From: a virus
Reading direction: 5' to 3' (one strand)
Virus record (IMG/VR): IMGVR_UViG_3300025598_000231
Location: 1 to 20,289 of that record
DNA length: 20,289 nucleotides
Under the pieces are notes generated by a model, which did not search any database, had not been told where the DNA came from, and saw nothing but the letters and a program-made list of their open reading frames with translations. Shown piece after piece: positions 2,459-19,397 of this stretch. A program made the position numbers and the translations under genes. Each line of letters starts with the position of its first letter. The stretch's first letter is position 1.

Positions 2459-2605
2459 ATGTATCAATTAATGGAAGAAAAAACAATTAAACGCTTATCT
2501 GATGGTGCTTTTATTCCCATGCTTGAAGACAACACAGACTATCAAGCCTACCTAAAATGGGTAGCTGAAGGCGGTCAAGTTTTACCTGCGGATGAAAATG
2601 CTTAA
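2459..2605 (+). CDS. Small conserved phage protein behind a fibre gene (48 aa)
   Basis: This short gene runs from ATG 2459 to TAA 2603-2605. It encodes a 48-residue acidic protein beginning MYQLMEEKTIKRLSDGAFIP and continuing with NTDYQAYLKWVAEGGQVLPA. The pattern I-x-R-L-x-D-x-A-F-I-P ... N-x-D-Y-x-x-Y-L-x-W-x-x-E-G is one I recognise from small phage proteins encoded after tail fibres; its biochemical role is unknown to me. By position it matches the XkdW-like gene at 664-834 and may help fibre folding or attachment (inference). It lies 1 nt behind the fibre gene and its last 14 nt overlap the following homing endonuclease. It shows no sequence likeness to the first module's small gene beyond size and charge. 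Confidence 0.65.
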   Translation: MYQLMEEKTIKRLSDGAFIPMLEDNTDYQAYLKWVAEGGQVLPADENA

Positions 2606-3224
2606 TCAAAATTTTCCACCTACCGCCTTGCTAGTTATGCAACATAACATAACTGGCTTAAAGTACTTTTGCAAGACATCTTTGCTATACAGGATTTATA
2701 GTTACAAAGGTAGCGGAACTCGTTGGAATAATCATTTAAAGGTTCATGGCAAGGATATTACAGTCGGCGTAATGGGTGTATATACCGATAAGCAAAGATG
2801 CCTAAAAGCGGCTAAAAAGTTCTCTGCTGACCACGATATTGTCAATAGCGATGAATGGGCTAATTTGGTCGAGGAAACAGGCATGATGGGTGCAAGCATG
2901 AAAGGTGAACGCAATCCTTTCTATGGCAAAAAGCATACTCCTGAAATGACAGAGTATCTTCGCCAGAAAAAAATTGGTAAATCAGTTAATAAAGGTGCTT
3001 ATCGTAGCCCTGAAAATCGTGCCAAAATATCAGCATCGTTAAAAGGTCGTAAAAACCCAGCAGTTTCTAAAGCATTAACTGGTCGCAAATTATCAGAAGA
3101 AACAAAACAAAAATTATCTGAATCTCGTAAAGGATATACACACAGTATGGAAACTAGAGAAAAATTACGCCAGAAGGCAATAGTCCAATGGGCTAAACAA
3201 CCAGCCGATGAGGTGAAAGCATAA
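2592..3224 (+). CDS. Homing endonuclease, GIY-YIG-like with NUMOD3 motifs
   Basis: The 210-residue basic protein has an N-terminal region like phage Seg-type nucleases: TGLKYFCKTS then YSYKGSGTRWNNHLKVHGKD (residues about 22-55). This replaces the textbook GIY/YIG tripeptides with a diverged version. It is followed by NUMOD3-type DNA-binding motifs: GERNPFYGKKHTPEM (about 99-115), SPENRAKISASLKGRKNP (about 139-156), and GRKLSEETKQKLSESRKG (about 164-181). Such proteins cut DNA to spread their own gene. Starts at 2592 or 2598 are both possible, as neither has a strong ribosome binding site; 2592 gives a 14-nt overlap with the previous gene. Its 3' end carries GAGGTGA (3210-3216), well placed for the next fibre start. 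The catalytic residues of the diverged core are not certain, so activity is inferred. Confidence 0.85.
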   Translation: MKMLNQNFPPTALLVMQHNITGLKYFCKTSLLYRIYSYKGSGTRWNNHLKVHGKDITVGVMGVYTDKQRCLKAAKKFSADHDIVNSDEWANLVEETGMMGASMKGERNPFYGKKHTPEMTEYLRQKKIGKSVNKGAYRSPENRAKISASLKGRKNPAVSKALTGRKLSEETKQKLSESRKGYTHSMETREKLRQKAIVQWAKQPADEVKA

Positions 3225-4536: not shown

Positions 4537-4946
4537 TGTTCCCTTTATCTATTTTAACTTATGCCAAAATTATTGCTGCTGCTGTTATTCTTTCTGCCGC
4601 TTGGTATAGCGGGTATCATTTTGAGTCTAGCCGCTTTGAAGCATATCGGTTGGAACAAACCCGACTTGTCCAAGAAACCGAACAAAGATACCAAGCAGAA
4701 GCAGACCAAATAAGGACTGAAAAAGATGCACAAATTCAAGCTATTAATACTCAGCTGCTCGATGCTGTTAGCGAGTTGCGTAAACGTCCCAGTCGCGCCC
4801 AAGACGACGCAAATGGACAAGACGGAACTGGGCGAGCCCTTTCTGCCGAGGATGCAGAATTTCTTGTTAGGGAAGCTGCCAGAGCAGACCTCCTCCGCTC
4901 CAGCCTCCAAGCCTGCTACGCCCAATACGACTCACTAAGTAAATAA
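4536..4946 (+). CDS. Rz-like i-spanin (inner-membrane spanin subunit)
   Basis: The 136-residue protein has an N-terminal membrane anchor (residues about 6-24, ILTYAKIIAAAVILSAAWY). A long periplasmic coiled coil follows (about 34-84, rich in Glu/Gln/Arg), then a conserved-looking end with RKRPSRAQ, LSAEDAEFLVREAARADLLR and CYAQYDSL. This is the Rz architecture: an inner-membrane subunit that pairs with an outer-membrane lipoprotein to fuse the two membranes in the last step of lysis of Gram-negative hosts. The o-spanin gene is read in the +1 frame inside it (4726-4938), the classic nested arrangement. It follows the holin candidate with a 1-nt overlap. Confidence 0.85.
   Translation: MFPLSILTYAKIIAAAVILSAAWYSGYHFESSRFEAYRLEQTRLVQETEQRYQAEADQIRTEKDAQIQAINTQLLDAVSELRKRPSRAQDDANGQDGTGRALSAEDAEFLVREAARADLLRSSLQACYAQYDSLSK
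4726..4938 (+). CDS. Rz1-like o-spanin lipoprotein, nested inside Rz
   Basis: This 70-residue ORF lies entirely within the Rz gene in another frame. It begins MHKFKLLILSCSMLLASC, a basic start, hydrophobic core and LASC lipobox, with C18 as the lipidated cysteine. The mature part is short and carries prolines and Ser/Thr (APASKPATPNTTH at the end), as expected for Rz1. TAAGGA at 4711-4716 gives it its own ribosome binding site 9 nt upstream. The family role is to sit in the outer membrane and bind the C-terminal end of the i-spanin. Signal, lipobox, proline content, nesting and own ribosome binding site together make a chance ORF unlikely. Confidence 0.85.
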   Translation: MHKFKLLILSCSMLLASCVNVPVAPKTTQMDKTELGEPFLPRMQNFLLGKLPEQTSSAPASKPATPNTTH

Positions 4947-5582: not shown

Positions 5583-6581
5583 ATGGACGGCTTTAAGACA
5601 TTACCCAAGATGCAGTGCTTCAAAGAAGGCGGCTCTGTAGCAGTTAAAAACATTATGAAAAAAGGCGGCATCGCTAAAAAAGGCGTGCCTGCTGTTAAAG
5701 AAAAAGATGAAGGTCCTAAGCGCCAAATGGTTGCTGGCCTAAAAGGCACAACGCCTGATGTTGCTGATGAAACCACAACTACCATGAAAAAAGGCGGCCG
5801 TGCTAAGAAAGCCATGGGTACCGTTCGCAAATATAAAGACGGCGGAGCAGTAGGTGTATACGGCGCTAAGAAAAAATCTGGCGACTACGACAGCATCGAA
5901 AAAGCCAAAGATATCAAGCCAGCTAAAGCTGCAGCTCCATCTAAGGCAGCTGTTAAGCCAGCCATGAAGGGCAGCGACGTTGCTAAAGAAAAAAGCAAAC
6001 CCGCTGGCTCATCAAAAGCTAAGAAAGTAAGCGACAACGCTAAAATGGCTGATGCTAAGTCTGGCGCTAAAGGCGGCCCAAACAAGTACAAAAAAGGCGG
6101 TGAAGTAAAAAAGATGGCTGCCGGTAGCCAAACAGCTCCATTAGCTACCGGCCCAGATTCCATCGCACGCGCCCATCAATTAGCATTAATGCAAGAGATG
6201 CGTAGATTGCCTCCTGCAATGCAATTACAGTTGTTGCAACAACAGCAACGAATTGGCGGCACAGGTGATATGAACGCGTTGGCTAATCAAATGAATCCAC
6301 AACCACAACAGCAACCAATGCCTACTAACATGGGCACCATGGGTCAAAAGCGTGGTGGTAAAGTTAAAAAGCATGCAGCTGGTGGCAAAATTGGAAAAAT
6401 TGCAGCAGGTTTATTTCCGGGTGCATTGTTTGGGCTTCCAACAGCTGCCGCAATATACAGCAATGAAAAAGCTAAAGATGCAAAAGTAGAAGAAGAAACC
6501 GCTGCTAAAGATAAAGAAGCAGAAACTAAATCTGCTCCTGTTGCTAAAAAACGTGGCGGTAAAGCTACAAAGGTTTGCTAA
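5583..6581 (+). CDS. Lysine-rich repeat protein with eight K-x-G-G-type motifs, function unknown
   Basis: This 332-residue protein has about 58 lysines (17%, hand count) and no fold I can name. The double glycine recurs in a fixed setting: KEGGSV (G16-17), KKGGIA (28-29), KKGGRA (71-72), KDGGAV (87-88), KKGGEV (172-173), KRGGKV (258-259), AAGGKI (267-268) and KRGGKA (325-326), usually followed by K-K within four residues. Residues 90-170 are an Ala/Lys/Ser-rich linker, about 194-245 are Gln/Met/Pro-rich, and 273-292 are hydrophobic ([20 protein letters not shown]). It sits first in a block leading into neck and tail genes. A DNA- or capsid-binding virion protein is possible, but this is inference. 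GAGGA six bases upstream supports the start. Confidence 0.7.
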
Positions 6582-6582
6582 T

Positions 6583-6750
6583 ATGCCAATCGAATCTAAA
6601 CAACAGCAAAAAGCCATGTACGCTGCTGCCGCAGGCAAAAGCAACATTGGCATTCCTAAGAAGGTAGGCAAGGAGTTTATCAAAGCTGGTAAAGCTAAAG
6701 CCAACCTGCCACAGAAGGTAATGAAGAAAGCAGCTGGAAGAGGACGCTAA
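6583..6750 (+). CDS. Small DUF3008-like protein (55 aa)
   Basis: The likely start is ATG 6583, one base after the preceding stop; a longer reading from 6541 would run through the end of the upstream gene and loses the conserved opening. The product begins [20 protein letters not shown], then has [15 protein letters not shown] and a basic end ([11 protein letters not shown]). The order M-P-x-x-S-K-x-Q-Q-x-x-M ... I-P-x-x-V-G-K-E-F resembles small phage and bacterial proteins of the DUF3008 type, for which no role is known to me. It lies between two lysine-rich GG-motif proteins and its stop overlaps the next start (TAATG), so the three are probably made together. Confidence 0.65.
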
Positions 6751-7220
6751 TGAAAGATTTTAAACAAAACGTCAAAATGATGTGCGCTGGCGGTCACTAC
6801 AAAGAAGGTGGCGACGTTAAGCAAGACAAGCAAATGATCAAAAAAGCATTCAAGATGCACGATGATCAGCTGCATGAGAAAAAGCACACCGATTTGTCTA
6901 AGTTAAAAACTGGCGGCAAAGTTAAAAAAATGGCTGAAGGTAGATTGGTTGATGACATAGATTTTAAAAATGCCAAACCAGTTAAAATGCCATCAGGTGT
7001 TGGAAGAACACCTACGATGAATATTGACGGTAAAGACGTTGAAGTAAGACCGGTTCAGATGCCAACACCTAGACTTAGTGATTTACCAAAAACTGCAAAT
7101 CGTCCTGATGATTTAGTTTATAGATATGCTCCCGGTCAAGGACCAAGCCTATCTGATTGGAAGCGCGGCGCTGCAAGCGGCATGAAAAAGGGCGGTAAAA
7201 CTAAACGCGGGAAAAAATAA
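6750..7220 (+). CDS. Second lysine-rich GG-motif protein, function unknown
   Basis: This 156-residue basic protein shares its N-terminal layout with the product of 5583-6581. Here [20 protein letters not shown] leads into GDV; there [12 protein letters not shown] leads into FKEGGSV. Further GG motifs are KTGGKVKK (G55-56) and MKKGGKTKRGKK at the C-terminus (G148-149). Residues about 65-140 are less basic and contain several prolines, with no family I recognise. Its ribosome binding site (AGAGGA, about 6739-6744) is good. The stop TAA is followed by one codon and then the GTG start of the connector gene in the same frame. The GG-motif proteins may be paralogous at their N-termini; function is not known. 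Confidence 0.65.
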   Translation: MKDFKQNVKMMCAGGHYKEGGDVKQDKQMIKKAFKMHDDQLHEKKHTDLSKLKTGGKVKKMAEGRLVDDIDFKNAKPVKMPSGVGRTPTMNIDGKDVEVRPVQMPTPRLSDLPKTANRPDDLVYRYAPGQGPSLSDWKRGAASGMKKGGKTKRGKK

Positions 7221-7223
7221 GCC

Positions 7224-8297
7224 GTGGCCTATTCTAATACATACAACCAGACTACGGTCGACGTTGATCAGATGATTTCCTACGCCTTTCGTGGTGCAGG
7301 AAAGCAAGCTGAAGAAATCACACCTGAGTACGTACAAGCCGCTAAGCAGGCGCTGTTCTACATTTTGCAGAACTCGTCTAACCGCGGCGTTAACCTATGG
7401 TTGTTAGAGAATATCATCCTTGGTGCGCAAAGTAATCAGCAGATCCTTACTATGCCAATGGGCACGATTGACGTGCGCGAGGCAAATTGGATTTACATCC
7501 AGACACCACAAATTGAGACAGCACTGCCTGTTGACAATTCAACTTCACCAAACGTGTTTGATCAAAACTTAAATGGTTTTGGTACAACTACGGTTAGTGA
7601 AAACTGGTTTGGTGCTCAATATCAAAATCAAACTAGCGTGTATTACGTTGGTATCAATGCCTATGCACCAAACTACGGTAGCGTAACATACACTGGTTTG
7701 GTATATGAAACAAGTAACGATGGTATTACATGGGAACAGCAAGCTGCGTTTGATACGCCACTAACCTTGCAAGACCGTACATGGTCTTACATTCCAATTA
7801 ATCTGACCATTCCGTATTACTTCCATCGTATTCGTTCTACCACATCGACGCCATTTTCATGCCGTCAAATTGTTTTTGCACAATCACAACAAGTTATTCC
7901 ATTAGCACGCTTAAACCGTGATGACTACTGGAACTTACCAAACAAACAGTTTCCATCTGTACGTTCTTTGCAATACTGGTTTAACCGTCAGATTGATCCA
8001 GAGATGTATATCTGGCCTGTACCATCCAACGACTTCCAAGTATTCCAGCTCATTATTGAAAAGCAGATGATGGACGTTGGCTCGTTGACTAATCAGTTAT
8101 ACCTGCCCAACCGTTGGATCCCCTACATTCAAGCTGCGCTCACCCATGAGTTGGCGATGCAGTTGCCCGGTGTTGATATGGGGCGCGTTGCTTACTTGGA
8201 AAAATTAGCACTTAATCTACGTACGCAAGCCGAAGAAGAAGATCGTGATAAGTCACCAATCTACTTCCAACCTAACTACAGCTACTATACACGATGA
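7224..8297 (+). CDS. P22 gp4-like head-to-tail connector protein with inserted beta domain
   Basis: The 357-residue product opens with an all-helical pattern typical of gp4-like tail accessory factors: DVDQMISYAFRGAGKQAEEI, then a helix with AAKQALFYILQNSSNRGVNL and W59. These proteins form a ring beneath the portal and hold packaged DNA in the head. P22 gp4 is about 166 residues; the extra length here lies mostly at about 105-222, a beta-rich insert with TGLVYETSNDGITWEQQAAF and WSYIPINLTIPYYFHRIRS, resembling a discoidin-like sandwich. The helical part resumes with IPYIQAALTHELAMQLPGVD and YLEKLALNLRTQAEEEDRDK. The start is GTG at 7224; no ATG occurs in frame until 7272. The ribosome binding site is poor. 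The stop overlaps the next start by 4 nt. Confidence 0.8.
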   Translation: MAYSNTYNQTTVDVDQMISYAFRGAGKQAEEITPEYVQAAKQALFYILQNSSNRGVNLWLLENIILGAQSNQQILTMPMGTIDVREANWIYIQTPQIETALPVDNSTSPNVFDQNLNGFGTTTVSENWFGAQYQNQTSVYYVGINAYAPNYGSVTYTGLVYETSNDGITWEQQAAFDTPLTLQDRTWSYIPINLTIPYYFHRIRSTTSTPFSCRQIVFAQSQQVIPLARLNRDDYWNLPNKQFPSVRSLQYWFNRQIDPEMYIWPVPSNDFQVFQLIIEKQMMDVGSLTNQLYLPNRWIPYIQAALTHELAMQLPGVDMGRVAYLEKLALNLRTQAEEEDRDKSPIYFQPNYSYYTR

Positions 8298-8914
8298 CCA
8301 GCGCATATCAAATGACCTACGATAATCTCGTAGCTGACATTATTAACTATATGGAGCGTAATGACGCCCAGTTTGTAGCTCAAATTCCAAACTTAATTGG
8401 TTTGGCTGAGTCTGCTATTGCAGCGCAGTTAAAAACGTATTTGCAGTTAACCGTAGTTGAAACAACACTGGCCACTAATCAAGTGGTACTAAACAAACCA
8501 GCACGCTGGCGTAAAACAGTTTCAATGAAGTATAATGGCCAACCTATTTTACTGCGCAGCCAAGATTATGTAGCGCAATATCAAGCTGAATCATCCTCTG
8601 GCACACCGCTTTACTATGCTGATTACGACTATAACAACTGGGCGTTCGCACCAAAACCTGATGCCACATACCCTATTGAAATTTTGTATTACAGCGAAAT
8701 TCAGCCATTAGATTCACAAAATCAACAAAATCTGTTCACGCGCGAATGCCCACAGGCGATGTTGTTTGGCTCTTTATTGCAAGCTCAAGGCTACTTAAAG
8801 GCTTTGGACAAGCTACCAATTTGGAAACAATATTACGACGATTCGTTGGCAGCACTCAAGCAAGAAGACAACCAACGCCGCATCGACAGAAACGTAACGG
8901 TTCAGGAACCCTAA
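8294..8914 (+). CDS. Tail adaptor-like protein (SU10-type adaptor family)
   Basis: The 206-residue product begins with helices (YDNLVADIINYMERNDAQFV, LIGLAESAIAAQLKTYL). A central beta section follows with LNKPARWRKTVSMKYNGQPI and TPLYYADYDYNNWAFAPKPD, then YPIEILYYSEIQPLDSQNQQ. It ends in helices (LFGSLLQAQGYLKALDKLPI). The P-x-x-W-R-K ... Y-Y-A-D-Y-D-Y-x-x-W-x-x-x-P-x-P-D-A-x-Y-P-x-E-I-L-Y-Y pattern is one I associate with the adaptor family of short-tailed phages, placed between connector and nozzle. The ATG lies in a 4-nt overlap with the gp4-like gene, so their amounts are probably coupled. Assignment rests on motif memory and neighbours. Confidence 0.7.
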   Translation: MTSAYQMTYDNLVADIINYMERNDAQFVAQIPNLIGLAESAIAAQLKTYLQLTVVETTLATNQVVLNKPARWRKTVSMKYNGQPILLRSQDYVAQYQAESSSGTPLYYADYDYNNWAFAPKPDATYPIEILYYSEIQPLDSQNQQNLFTRECPQAMLFGSLLQAQGYLKALDKLPIWKQYYDDSLAALKQEDNQRRIDRNVTVQEP

Positions 8915-13150: not shown

Positions 13151-14329
13151 ATGGGTGGAACAGCAGAAATAATTGCAGCACCAGTTGCAGATTTTTTGGG
13201 TAGTAGTTTTGCTGGGGACGCGGCATTTACGTTAGCCTCATCAGACGTTGCTGCACAAGCTGCTGCAGGCGCTATTTCTGTTTCTGACGCGTTAGCGGCT
13301 GGAGCTTCTGTTTCCGATTTAGCCTCAGCTGGGGCCCTTACTGATCTTGGCGGCGGAACATTTTTAAATACCGCTACAAATGCTTTGGTAGACTCCACTG
13401 GAGCAGCACTGACAGATTTAGGTGGTGGTTCTTTCCTAAATCCCGTAACTGGTGCATTAGTAGATTCAACAGGTCAAGCATTACCACAAGTTAGCTCTGG
13501 TATTTTTCAAGGAGCAGACGGTTCATTCCTAAGCGCTACCGGAGACCCATTAACCCAATCTGCTGTTGATGGTTCTTTTCTTAATACCAACACTGGCGAA
13601 ATTATTGACGCTACTGGCGGCGCTGCTGCTCAAGATGCTGGTGGTTTATTAGGTACCGGAGTAACAGCAGAAGATGTTGCTAAATACGGTCAAAAAGCAT
13701 ATAGCGTATTAAATAAATTATTAGACCCAGCAACCAAAGCACTTCAAACAGGTCAACATTTAACTGGCCCAGCCGCTGGAGCAGCATTGGGGGCCATTTC
13801 TACTTTACCCACAAATTCACAAAATCAAACACAAGACCCAACCCAAACAGGTGGTGGATTTTTAACACCGACATTTGCTGGCGGAAATACAAATTATACT
13901 TTAAGTGATAATGATGTTGGTAGTCCAACAACACAACCATACACAGCGCCAGTCAATATCCCTTTAATGGCGCCACAAGCCGCACCTCAATTAGCAACCG
14001 GTGGTCAAGTTGATGTTGATGGAGAAACACAAGAACATGTTCCTGAATTTTATAGCGAAGGTGGCTTAAAACATCGTTATGTAAAAGGTGACGGTGATGG
14101 TACTTCAGATGATGTACCAGCAATGTTGGCTAATGGTGAGTTTGTAATACCGGCTGACGTAGTATCTTCATTAGGTAATGGTAGCAATGATAGTGGTTCT
14201 AAAGTGTTAGATAATTTTTTAGAAACTATTAGAGAACATAAACAAAAACATAGTGCAAAGCATTTACCGCCGGACAGCAAAGGTCCGTTAGCATATTTGC
14301 TAGAAGCTCACAAAAAGGTTAAATCATAA
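13151..14329 (+). CDS. Low-complexity internal virion-type protein with four 24-residue repeats
   Basis: The 392-residue product is Ala/Gly/Ser/Thr-rich. Residues 62-158 are four tandem units of about 24 residues. The first two (62-85, 86-109) share ALTDLGGG-x-FLN ... ALVDSTG; the next two (110-132, 133-158) are more diverged but keep G-S-F-L and D-A-T-G or S-A-T-G. A helical part follows (about 172-200). Near the C-terminus lie two GG motifs (LATGGQVD, YSEGGLKH) and GDGDGTSDDVPAMLANGEFV, continuing IPADVVSSLGNGS (about 313-345). That block is familiar from phage virion proteins ejected with DNA or located in the tail. It ends in a Lys/His-rich helix. Function is inferred only from position and composition. 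Confidence 0.65.
   Translation: MGGTAEIIAAPVADFLGSSFAGDAAFTLASSDVAAQAAAGAISVSDALAAGASVSDLASAGALTDLGGGTFLNTATNALVDSTGAALTDLGGGSFLNPVTGALVDSTGQALPQVSSGIFQGADGSFLSATGDPLTQSAVDGSFLNTNTGEIIDATGGAAAQDAGGLLGTGVTAEDVAKYGQKAYSVLNKLLDPATKALQTGQHLTGPAAGAALGAISTLPTNSQNQTQDPTQTGGGFLTPTFAGGNTNYTLSDNDVGSPTTQPYTAPVNIPLMAPQAAPQLATGGQVDVDGETQEHVPEFYSEGGLKHRYVKGDGDGTSDDVPAMLANGEFVIPADVVSSLGNGSNDSGSKVLDNFLETIREHKQKHSAKHLPPDSKGPLAYLLEAHKKVKS
13334..13621 (+). repeat. Four tandem ~72-bp coding repeats (24-residue protein repeat)
   Basis: In-frame units begin at about 13334, 13406, 13478 and 13547. The first two are alike at protein level over nearly all 24 residues, while the last two have diverged. The conserved core is F-L-N-x-x-T-G-x-L-V-D-S-T-G. 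A beta-solenoid-like stack is a reasonable guess for such short glycine-rich units. Confidence 0.6.
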
Positions 14330-17111: not shown

Positions 17112-19397
17112 ATGGCCCTAAAAGAAGTCGATTACGATCCCTTTAAAGGTAAATTAAAAGAAGTCGATTACGACCCTTTTAAAGAAGATAAATCTTTAGC
17201 AAAAACATTTGAGCCAGCTACTGCTACAGTAATGCGAGCTCTTATTGGTTTAGCTAAACCTCCTGCAGCTATGGCTGAAATGGTTGGTTGGGATAAGCCG
17301 GCCAAAGATTTGTTAAAAATGGACGAAGAGTATAAGAAAAAGGCTGGTATAGCTGGCACAATTTCTAGTACGCTAGGCGATGTTGCTGGTTTTATGTTAC
17401 CAGCTAAAGAGTTTGAAATTGGCTATCAAGGTTTAAAAACAGTTCCTAAGTTTGCTAAATTAGCCAAAGCCATGGAAGGTAATTTTGCTAATTTGCCAAG
17501 TTGGGCTAAAGCATCCGCTACAGGTGCCGGAGCTTCACTATTTACCCCTACAGGTAAATCAATTGCAGAGCCAGGTTATTTTAAAGAAAAAGCAGAACAA
17601 GCTGGTACGGGCGCCATTTTAGGCCCTGCTGCTGAAAAAATAGTTGGTGGTGCGTCACGTGTTCTTTCACCACAATTACAACGTTTAAAAGACCTTGCAG
17701 CACAAGGTATTGATGTAAAACGTTTTCTTAGCGGTTCAAAAGGCGTCCCTGGATTTGAAGATACGTCTGGTGCCACTTTGGGTCAAACTTTAGGCGGTTC
17801 GGCGCAGGCCCTTGAAAGAATTTTGCGGGTATTGCCTGGCGCTGGAATTAAAGGTCAAGCTGAAAGTTCTAATAGAAACTTATTAGAAATGCTTCGTTTA
17901 AGAAAACAAGCATTAAGCAATCAAAGAGACAGAGATAATGCTGCGTTAAAAGCCGTGTACGATAGTCGCCAGCACCCATTGCAGCAATTAACTGATCAGT
18001 TAAAAGCTGATAGTGCAAATAGACATCATAAAAGTGTTTCTAAATTGCACGAAAATTTAAACAATGAACAAGATCAATATCATTTAGATGTTTTAAATAA
18101 AGTATTATCGCATTTAAAAGATGAAAAAGGTCAGCCTTTAAAATTGCCAAAAGATGTTGTTGGTAGCAATGCTATTAAGCACATTCAAGAAAGACTGAGC
18201 GAAACTTATGGTAAAGCAACTGGTTTATTAGGTGACCCAGAGCTTGGTGGTTCTATTAAAATTACACCAGAGTTGGAAACTAAGTTAAAACAGGTTGTTG
18301 CTGATAATCCAGACGTACCAGGTTTAGATGCTGAAGTTAATAAACTCATTAATTTAGGCGGTGACACCAAGTTAATTTCTCCAGTTCAATGGCAAGCCCA
18401 ATTTCAAAAACTTGGTGATCGAGCCTACAATTTGCTTACCAAGGGTAACGCAGATGATGTAGAGTTAGCTGGCGCCCTAAAAGACATTAAAGGCCATTGG
18501 TTAGACCACGTTGGTGATACTGAAGGTGGTCAGTTAATGAAAGACGCTAACAGAGCTTATAGCCAGCTGCAAGGTCCCCAACGCGCTGTAGGATTGAAAT
18601 CATCAATGTTGGATGAAGGCAGATTTACGCCTGAACAATTAGTTTCTGGTTTAAAGCCAGAAATGTCTATTAAACGTTACACTGCAGCAAATGACGAACA
18701 GTTACAAGATGCTTTAGCAGCTGCTAAACTTTTAGACGCAAAAAGACAAAAAGTAGAAGAACAAGCAAACAAATGGAAAACTCAGTTAGAAGAGCACCAT
18801 GGTAAATTGGATGCTAAAGAAAAAGAAGCGCTTGACAAAATAAAACTAAATCAAAAAGAAGAACTTGACAACGCCTACGAAAATCAAAATTCTAATGTTG
18901 AAACACTTGTAAACAAAATTCAATCTGAAAGCGTTCCAAGTAGTTTATTAAATAAAGCCGGATACGAATTAGCGCTTGGACCAACGCTTAGCGCTGGCTT
19001 GGGTGGATTAAGTTTTCTTGGCGCTCACCAAATGGGTTTACCTTTAAACTACCAAATAGCTGCTCCAATAGCTGCGGTAGCGGCCCCAGCTTTGGCTACT
19101 CGTTTTGGTTATACTGGTGCAACAGATCTATTAAAAGATTTGGCAACAGAACGACCAGAGTTTGTTAAACAAGCTGGTAAAATGTTACAAGAAAACTTGC
19201 CAACTGCAACTGGTGCGCTTGTTAATGCTATGGAGCCAACCGCGTACCGTCAAATTGGCGGAGGTAAAAACGTTCAAGTTTATGCGCCACAAGGAATGGA
19301 AAACGCACAGCCAATTCCATTTCCAACTGTTCCGCAAGATGATCAAAGCACTCCTATTGTTCCAAAACGCGCGGGTGGTCTAGTTCACTTGCGGTAA
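17112..19397 (+). CDS. Large internal virion / DNA ejection-type protein
   Basis: The 761-residue product starts with a doubled peptide, LKEVDYDPFK at residues 3-12 and 15-24. Residues 30-180 are Ala/Gly/Lys-rich with amphipathic stretches. About 185-345 are helical with SNRNLLEMLRLRKQALSNQR, and about 535-605 form a strong Lys/Glu/Gln coiled coil. Two hydrophobic segments follow (618-639 and 647-667). It ends PKRAGGLVHLR, another GG motif. Helical bulk, late membrane-like segments and its place at the end of the virion operon fit proteins ejected to form a channel across the envelope, as in P22 and T7; no lytic motif was found. The stop overlaps the convergent polymerase gene by 13 nt. Confidence 0.65.
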   Translation: MALKEVDYDPFKGKLKEVDYDPFKEDKSLAKTFEPATATVMRALIGLAKPPAAMAEMVGWDKPAKDLLKMDEEYKKKAGIAGTISSTLGDVAGFMLPAKEFEIGYQGLKTVPKFAKLAKAMEGNFANLPSWAKASATGAGASLFTPTGKSIAEPGYFKEKAEQAGTGAILGPAAEKIVGGASRVLSPQLQRLKDLAAQGIDVKRFLSGSKGVPGFEDTSGATLGQTLGGSAQALERILRVLPGAGIKGQAESSNRNLLEMLRLRKQALSNQRDRDNAALKAVYDSRQHPLQQLTDQLKADSANRHHKSVSKLHENLNNEQDQYHLDVLNKVLSHLKDEKGQPLKLPKDVVGSNAIKHIQERLSETYGKATGLLGDPELGGSIKITPELETKLKQVVADNPDVPGLDAEVNKLINLGGDTKLISPVQWQAQFQKLGDRAYNLLTKGNADDVELAGALKDIKGHWLDHVGDTEGGQLMKDANRAYSQLQGPQRAVGLKSSMLDEGRFTPEQLVSGLKPEMSIKRYTAANDEQLQDALAAAKLLDAKRQKVEEQANKWKTQLEEHHGKLDAKEKEALDKIKLNQKEELDNAYENQNSNVETLVNKIQSESVPSSLLNKAGYELALGPTLSAGLGGLSFLGAHQMGLPLNYQIAAPIAAVAAPALATRFGYTGATDLLKDLATERPEFVKQAGKMLQENLPTATGALVNAMEPTAYRQIGGGKNVQVYAPQGMENAQPIPFPTVPQDDQSTPIVPKRAGGLVHLR
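17118..17183 (+). repeat. Direct repeat coding for a doubled EVDYDPF peptide
   Basis: Copies at 17118-17147 and 17154-17183 (period 36) encode LKEVDYDPFK twice. The DNA copies differ at three positions, all silent, while the six-base spacer codes Gly-Lys. It lies at the very N-terminus of the large internal virion-type protein. Confidence 0.85.

Follow-up and report, generated by a model that had tools for sequence, protein, structure and literature searches.

Two genes in a viral record of 20,289 bases, analysed over its whole length (the window), encode proteins, KGG1 and KGG2, that repeat a genuine, conserved short motif, [M/Y/L/F]-K-x-G-G-x-[V/A/T]-K, and that are tied to the phage head-connector block. 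The existence of such a shared motif, put forward in an initial annotation of this DNA, is borne out by enrichment as well as by conservation. As read from the sequence, the floppy, Lys-rich repeats and the cysteines near the chain ends suggest tethers, with other parts of the virion and perhaps DNA as their binding partners.

On its plus strand, the window carries tail-fibre, spanin, endolysin, connector and tail genes, and the DNA polymerase gene lies on the minus strand. The three-gene stretch of KGG1, p55 and KGG2, in which p55 had escaped the initial annotation, is flanked by the endolysin gene and p357, whose homologues are annotated as ‘tail adaptor’ in the distant relative MW202545 and in CRP-901/902:

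5583..6581, plus strand: KGG1, 332 aa, ten GG (nine in a basic setting)
6583..6750, plus strand: p55, 55-aa basic protein with no GG motif (phrog_16759)
6750..7220, plus strand: KGG2, 156 aa, four GG
7224..8297, plus strand: p357, tail adaptor, the gene that always follows the KGG block
8294..8914, plus strand: p206, SU10-type head-tail adaptor, after p357 (PF24175, E 4e-19; phrog_2941)

In the model predicted for p357 (mean pLDDT 75), a discoidin/CBM32-like beta-sandwich is apparently inserted in a connector protein, and fold searches match this sandwich to F5/8 type C/CBM32 domains in the PDB. p55 resembles an N-terminal module, MPSKSKxQxxxMxAxAH, of KGG proteins from set-B phages; close matches to this module occur in phiKZ (PHIKZ165.1) and other jumbo phages as well as adjoining the portal in Stenotrophomonas phage BUCT555. 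By eye, two ORFs among the tail-fibre genes (821-1312 and 2592-3224) are homing-endonuclease-like, of HNH and GIY-YIG type, and an ORF at 4726-4938, which is nested within the Rz-like spanin gene in a different frame and begins MHKFKLLILSCSMLLASC, likely encodes an outer-membrane spanin lipoprotein.

The GG pairs of KGG1 start at residues 16, 28, 71, 87, 164, 172, 225, 258, 267 and 325. The repeat noted earlier in this protein is real, but the eight copies then counted in a basic setting are nine of ten, since every GG except that at residue 225 is basic. KGG2 has four (residues 14, 20, 55 and 148), in agreement with the previous estimate of at least three. Given by their GG codons, the copies are:

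5628..5633, plus strand: KGG1 motif 1, CFKEGGSV
5664..5669, plus strand: KGG1 motif 2, MKKGGIA
5793..5798, plus strand: KGG1 motif 3, MKKGGRAKK, with a first Gly that does not vary among 30 orthologues
5841..5846, plus strand: KGG1 motif 4, YKDGGAV
6072..6077, plus strand: KGG1 motif 5, AKGGPNK
6096..6101, plus strand: KGG1 motif 6, YKKGGEVKK
6354..6359, plus strand: KGG1 motif 7, QKRGGKVKK, opening the C-terminal segment that is present in L012 KGG2
6381..6386, plus strand: KGG1 motif 8, AAGGKIGK
6555..6560, plus strand: KGG1 motif 9, KKRGGKATK, C-terminal
6789..6794, plus strand: KGG2 motif 1, CAGGHY
6807..6812, plus strand: KGG2 motif 2, YKEGGDVK
6912..6917, plus strand: KGG2 motif 3, LKTGGKVKK
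7191..7196, plus strand: KGG2 motif 4, MKKGGKTK

Enrichment was assessed against 2000 shuffles of each protein against itself, a baseline that keeps its Lys and Gly content. KGG1 contains seven KxGG versus 0.87 expected and four GGx[VAI][KR] versus 0.21, numbers that none of the 2000 shuffles reached in either case, and KGG2 contains three versus 0.32 (p 0.003) and two versus 0.06 (p 0.0015), respectively. By these composition shuffles, both proteins thus exceed random Lys/Gly-rich sequence. KxGG was significantly enriched in no other window protein, and across 657 further gene products with GG from related loci, the loose motif stays at background (229 versus 214.8 expected). Furthermore, the strict form is confined to KGG1 and KGG2 in the complete relative G002 and to two proteins adjoining the adaptor in MW202545. 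Hence, the spread over several proteins of the operon that had been suggested narrows to KGG1 and KGG2, and a motif running through the whole operon is rejected.

The looser versions previously pointed out in the 392-aa and 761-aa proteins are present as peptides:

14000..14005, plus strand: LATGGQVD in the 392-aa protein, a looser cousin of the motif
14060..14065, plus strand: FYSEGGLKH, also in the 392-aa protein, within a conserved tape-measure-like segment and not the K-motif
19374..19379, plus strand: KRAGGLVHLR at the C-terminus of the 761-aa protein, a separate C-terminal motif

None of them is the K-rich motif, and the proposed connection of these two proteins with KGG1 and KGG2 is not supported. 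In most members of the 392-aa family, the conserved segment is preceded by variable PHI-A-x-GG-x-[VT] copies, one to four in number. Within the segment, F[FY]SEGG, found in nearly all members listed, is followed by GDGTSDxxPAMLAxGEFVIPADV. This SDxxPAMLAxGEFVIPADV segment with FYSEGGL, which has a weak phrog_6090 match, classes the 392-aa protein as tape-measure-like. KR[AD]GGL[VI]HL recurs at the C-terminus of a 315-aa late virion-block protein in L025-type phages.

The motif was sharpened with 28 non-redundant relatives, whose logo reads M/Y/L/F at -3, K at -2 (60%), any residue at -1, GG, any residue at +1, V/A/T at +2 and K at +3 and +4; its strict form occurs 88 times in this set versus 1.2 expected. 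Lys at -2/-1 arises partly by construction because the set was chosen for K.GG/KGG. Positions -3 and +2 played no part in the selection, and their preferences recurred when 52 proteins from other phage types were taken as a second set.

Conservation in orthologues, which the initial annotation had made a touchstone of the motif, is evident from this logo, from an alignment and from a codon comparison. Ten columns are invariant among 30 KGG1 orthologues, mostly in or next to motifs, and GG is strongly conserved while its neighbours at -1 and +1 vary. N/S is 0.41-0.43 at GG codons, 0.84-0.94 at motif positions -3 and -2, 0.65 at other glycines and 1.21 at all other codons, figures that are descriptive because the sequence pairs are non-independent. 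Synonymous change at GG codons is high, above average, which argues that GG is kept as amino acids and not as a DNA word; a DNA-level word such as a recombination signal is rejected as the sole cause. The same data weigh on low-complexity drift, according to which the proteins would be Lys-rich filler that gained GG via repeat recombination and has no specific function. Although linkers that vary greatly in length (175-628 aa) and the exchange of segments between KGG1 and KGG2 would suit such drift, the stronger conservation of GG, Lys -2 and hydrophobic -3 than of other positions amid plentiful synonymous change, the invariant columns and the fixed gene position largely refute it and leave it very improbable.

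The KGG1 family has at least 254 IMG/VR relatives. Searches of Pfam, NCBIfam and PHROGs with KGG1 and KGG2 gave no match beyond chance, because conservation is limited to short motifs. Likewise, tblastn of KGG1, KGG2 and a 38-aa module (see below) against 50,697 phage records gave no match, a PDB sequence search gave no relevant one, and 84,980 bacterial genomes, searched with two peptide patterns only, returned 30 pattern matches with no confirmed KGG relative. The literature on the KGG motif, DUF6321 and phiKZ gp165.1 offered nothing useful; neither a published account of the motif, in literature short of most subscription papers, nor proteomics of any KGG-encoding phage was found.

The gene neighbourhood is highly regular. 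A tail-adaptor gene lies within 1.3 kb downstream of KGG1 in all 81 loci with enough downstream sequence, which were partly retrieved through the KGG sequence itself, and a 55-aa gene stands between the two in 75 of them. When loci were retrieved through the adaptor only, a KGG protein was encoded upstream in 38 of 40, and in the remaining two KGG relatives are cut by the contig end. By this head-connector linkage (81/81), the KGG proteins would class with minor virion or internal head proteins, and we infer that they are expressed late and are present in the virion. At the equivalent position, MW202545 encodes a protein of 449 aa in which GG occurs 19 times. In other phage types (loci L082 to L119), the interval between the capsid and adaptor genes is occupied by cassettes of several KGG proteins. 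No KGG protein accompanies the homologous adaptors of Caulobacter phages; the function would therefore be dispensable or replaced in that branch. Two further features of these loci may be recorded: several small basic proteins in L091, L097, L112 and others end in a second C-terminal motif, R[AGH]xG[IC]xx[RK]GKT[KR]G[KR]x[CVL], and a 412-aa protein of MW202545 (L120:8833-10071, minus strand) has a long CCSCCCSCCC run near its C-terminus.

In the window's lineage, KGG1 directly follows the spanin and endolysin genes. This position and the strong basic charge would also fit non-structural proteins that sit by chance in the late operon, i.e. late host-takeover, DNA/RNA-binding or lysis-helper proteins. 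Yet, the linkage of KGG1 to the adaptor is fixed, and in MW202545 and the set-B phages no lysis genes separate the KGG genes from the capsid and adaptor genes that flank them. A non-structural role is thus considered unlikely, if with appreciable weight.

AlphaFold modelling of KGG1 yields a mean pLDDT of 50.9 and a pTM of 0.18, so that the protein is predicted to be disordered apart from short helices, among them a helical hairpin at residues 193-224. The net charge is +38 for KGG1 and +17 for KGG2; the head and tail proteins of G002 are nearly all acidic or near neutral, with -51 for the portal and -57 for a tape-measure-like protein. (G002 also has a 330-aa ORF, L212:2056-3048 on the minus strand, that overlaps the terminase ORF and appears intein/HINT-like by eye.) Predicted disorder, several copies per chain and a motif more conserved than its linkers place the KGG proteins among multivalent short-linear-motif proteins.

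Their architecture is mosaic. KGG2 opens with a paralogue-like start, MKDFKQNxKMxC, and also carries a QDKxMIKKAFKMHDxxLH module; the 38-residue QDKxxIKKAFKxHD module that belongs to KGG2 in the window is part of KGG1 in other phages. Conversely, the last 75 residues of the window's KGG1 match L012 KGG2 with 54% identity (E 2e-21). The boundary of the swapped segment coincides with a KGG motif, a feature that had gone unnoticed before. One stretch within this segment and two cysteines of KGG1 are located as follows:

6399..6464, plus strand: hydrophobic stretch of 21 residues within the swapped KGG1 segment, as seen in the sequence
5616..5618, plus strand: N-terminal Cys12 of KGG1
6576..6578, plus strand: C-terminal Cys332 of KGG1

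The terminal cysteines, likewise new relative to the initial annotation, form a recurrent pattern. Among 50 non-redundant KGG1 proteins, 46 have a Cys in residues 9-40 versus 11.9 expected, and 28 have one within the last three residues versus 1.3 expected (maximum 6 in 2000 permutations). Although the permutation makes no correction for phylogeny, the linkers that precede the C-terminus differ widely in length. Across all KGG proteins, a C-terminal Cys occurs in 27 of 93, compared with 17 of 1219 other ORFs. The C-terminal motif is missing from about one third of KGG1 proteins, and the terminal Cys from some.

Taken together, the favoured, if tentative, reading, to which we give a little under an even chance, is that KGG1 and KGG2 are multivalent polybasic tethers of the head or connector that dock through GG peptides and lay lysine-rich linkers on DNA or acidic virion proteins. 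As late-gene, intrinsically disordered and strongly basic proteins of the head/connector block, they would use [M/Y/L/F]-K-x-G-G-x-[V/A/T]-K repeatedly along each chain as a short docking motif. Its anchors may be the hydrophobic residue at -3 and Val/Ala/Thr at +2, with the Gly pair permitting a tight turn, and one chain could thereby grip a repeated partner at several points; the most likely partner is the interior of the capsid or of the portal/connector. With its linkers resting on DNA or acidic virion proteins, such a tether could help to hold or order the packaged DNA, or could close off the head at the connector. The cysteines towards the two ends might pin the chain via disulfides or metal, perhaps after release. 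Of the common partners proposed earlier for the motif, DNA and the capsid lining fit such a tether, and cleavage at GG is without positive support.

A late protein that is basic and disordered might just as well act on DNA or RNA of the host, or have a role in assembly only. In the latter case, the KGG proteins would be accessory scaffolds or chaperone-like tethers that are lost before maturation. They are disordered, multivalent and adjoin connector genes, and their head block also encodes a GroES-like protein and an acidic scaffold-like one; however, this means that a separate scaffold-like protein is already there, and an assembly factor seems improbable. Conceivably, tethering by KGG proteins could extend to a new virion component, a disordered polycation docked in the capsid or connector by PHI-K-x-GG-x-V whose end cysteines oxidise on cell exit to give a redox-set staple between DNA and shell, such cassettes then being a hidden, fast-evolving part of aquatic phage heads. 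This more far-reaching proposal is speculative and rather unlikely.

The substrates of adenovirus and African swine fever virus proteases are virion precursors with recurring GG, and adenovirus-type cleavage sites follow (M/I/L)xGG-x, with a hydrophobic residue at P4. By analogy, the GG motifs might be protease sites at which polyprotein-like KGG precursors are cut after GG during maturation, so that basic peptides are freed into the head. The strong conservation of GG next to variable -1 and +1 neighbours and the coincidence of a segment boundary between proteins with the motif are compatible with such processing. Nevertheless, Pfam and PHROGs scans of ten G002 head/tail proteins, several of which have no match, revealed no maturation protease, and the Mu gpT-like capsid protein of G002 aligns only to the capsid part of protease-capsid fusion profiles. 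In addition, the hydrophobic residue would be at P5 for a cut after GG, one position off the adenovirus register, and such a cut would not require the V/A/T at +2 and the Lys at +3/+4 that are conserved. Cleavage after GG, one of the functions initially considered, is less likely because no protease was recognised among the head and tail proteins scanned, and we regard it as distinctly improbable.

In many freshwater phages, these unnamed proteins are encoded by genes that lie between those of the capsid and the connector. Should they belong to the virion, they would illustrate how a disordered chain can change rapidly and yet keep a structural role via a repeated docking peptide, and they could serve as a marker for the connector blocks of phages that cannot be cultured. 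With the motif, the cysteines at the chain ends and a similar cassette in a cultured SAR11 phage, the question is within reach of experiment.

Among known systems, GsiB-type stress proteins with the Pfam KGG repeat (PF10685) are hydrophilic and repeat a Lys followed by Gly-Gly. KGG1 and KGG2 have the Lys-Gly-Gly repetition in common with them but do not match the profile: hmmscan gave no hit up to E 0.1 with KGG1/KGG2, and none up to E 1 with four orthologues and the 449-aa protein of MW202545. The internal head proteins of T4 and other phages are late, often basic and packaged or assembled with the head; the KGG proteins, presumably also late, share the basic character, with no sequence link found. 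Their nearest described relatives are DUF6321 (PF19846) and neighbouring small basic proteins of cyanophages and pelagiphages, together with a cassette in the cultured SAR11 phage HTVC027P. DUF6321 and its companions are small, Lys-rich like KGG, encoded in the head block and end in W[KN]C, and such genes lie between connector/scaffold and capsid genes in KBS-P-1A and HTVC142P. KGG1 and KGG2 differ in that the domain is absent: the profile matches neither of them nor p55. It does match set-B proteins and a 133-aa relative protein, and in some relatives DUF6321 is fused to KGG motifs. In HTVC027P, gp44 to gp54 form a run of small, mostly K-rich proteins between the portal and GroES genes (L221:10113-12884), which includes KGG-motif proteins and a DUF6321 protein; the main text of the transcriptome paper on this phage holds no gene-level data on the run. 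The cassette differs from the KGG block by having no detectable overall homology to KGG1/KGG2 and by its location before, not after, the capsid gene, yet its gp47 carries MYKKGGSVKKKK and other GG motifs, and its gp44 carries GVFKKGGSSKF.
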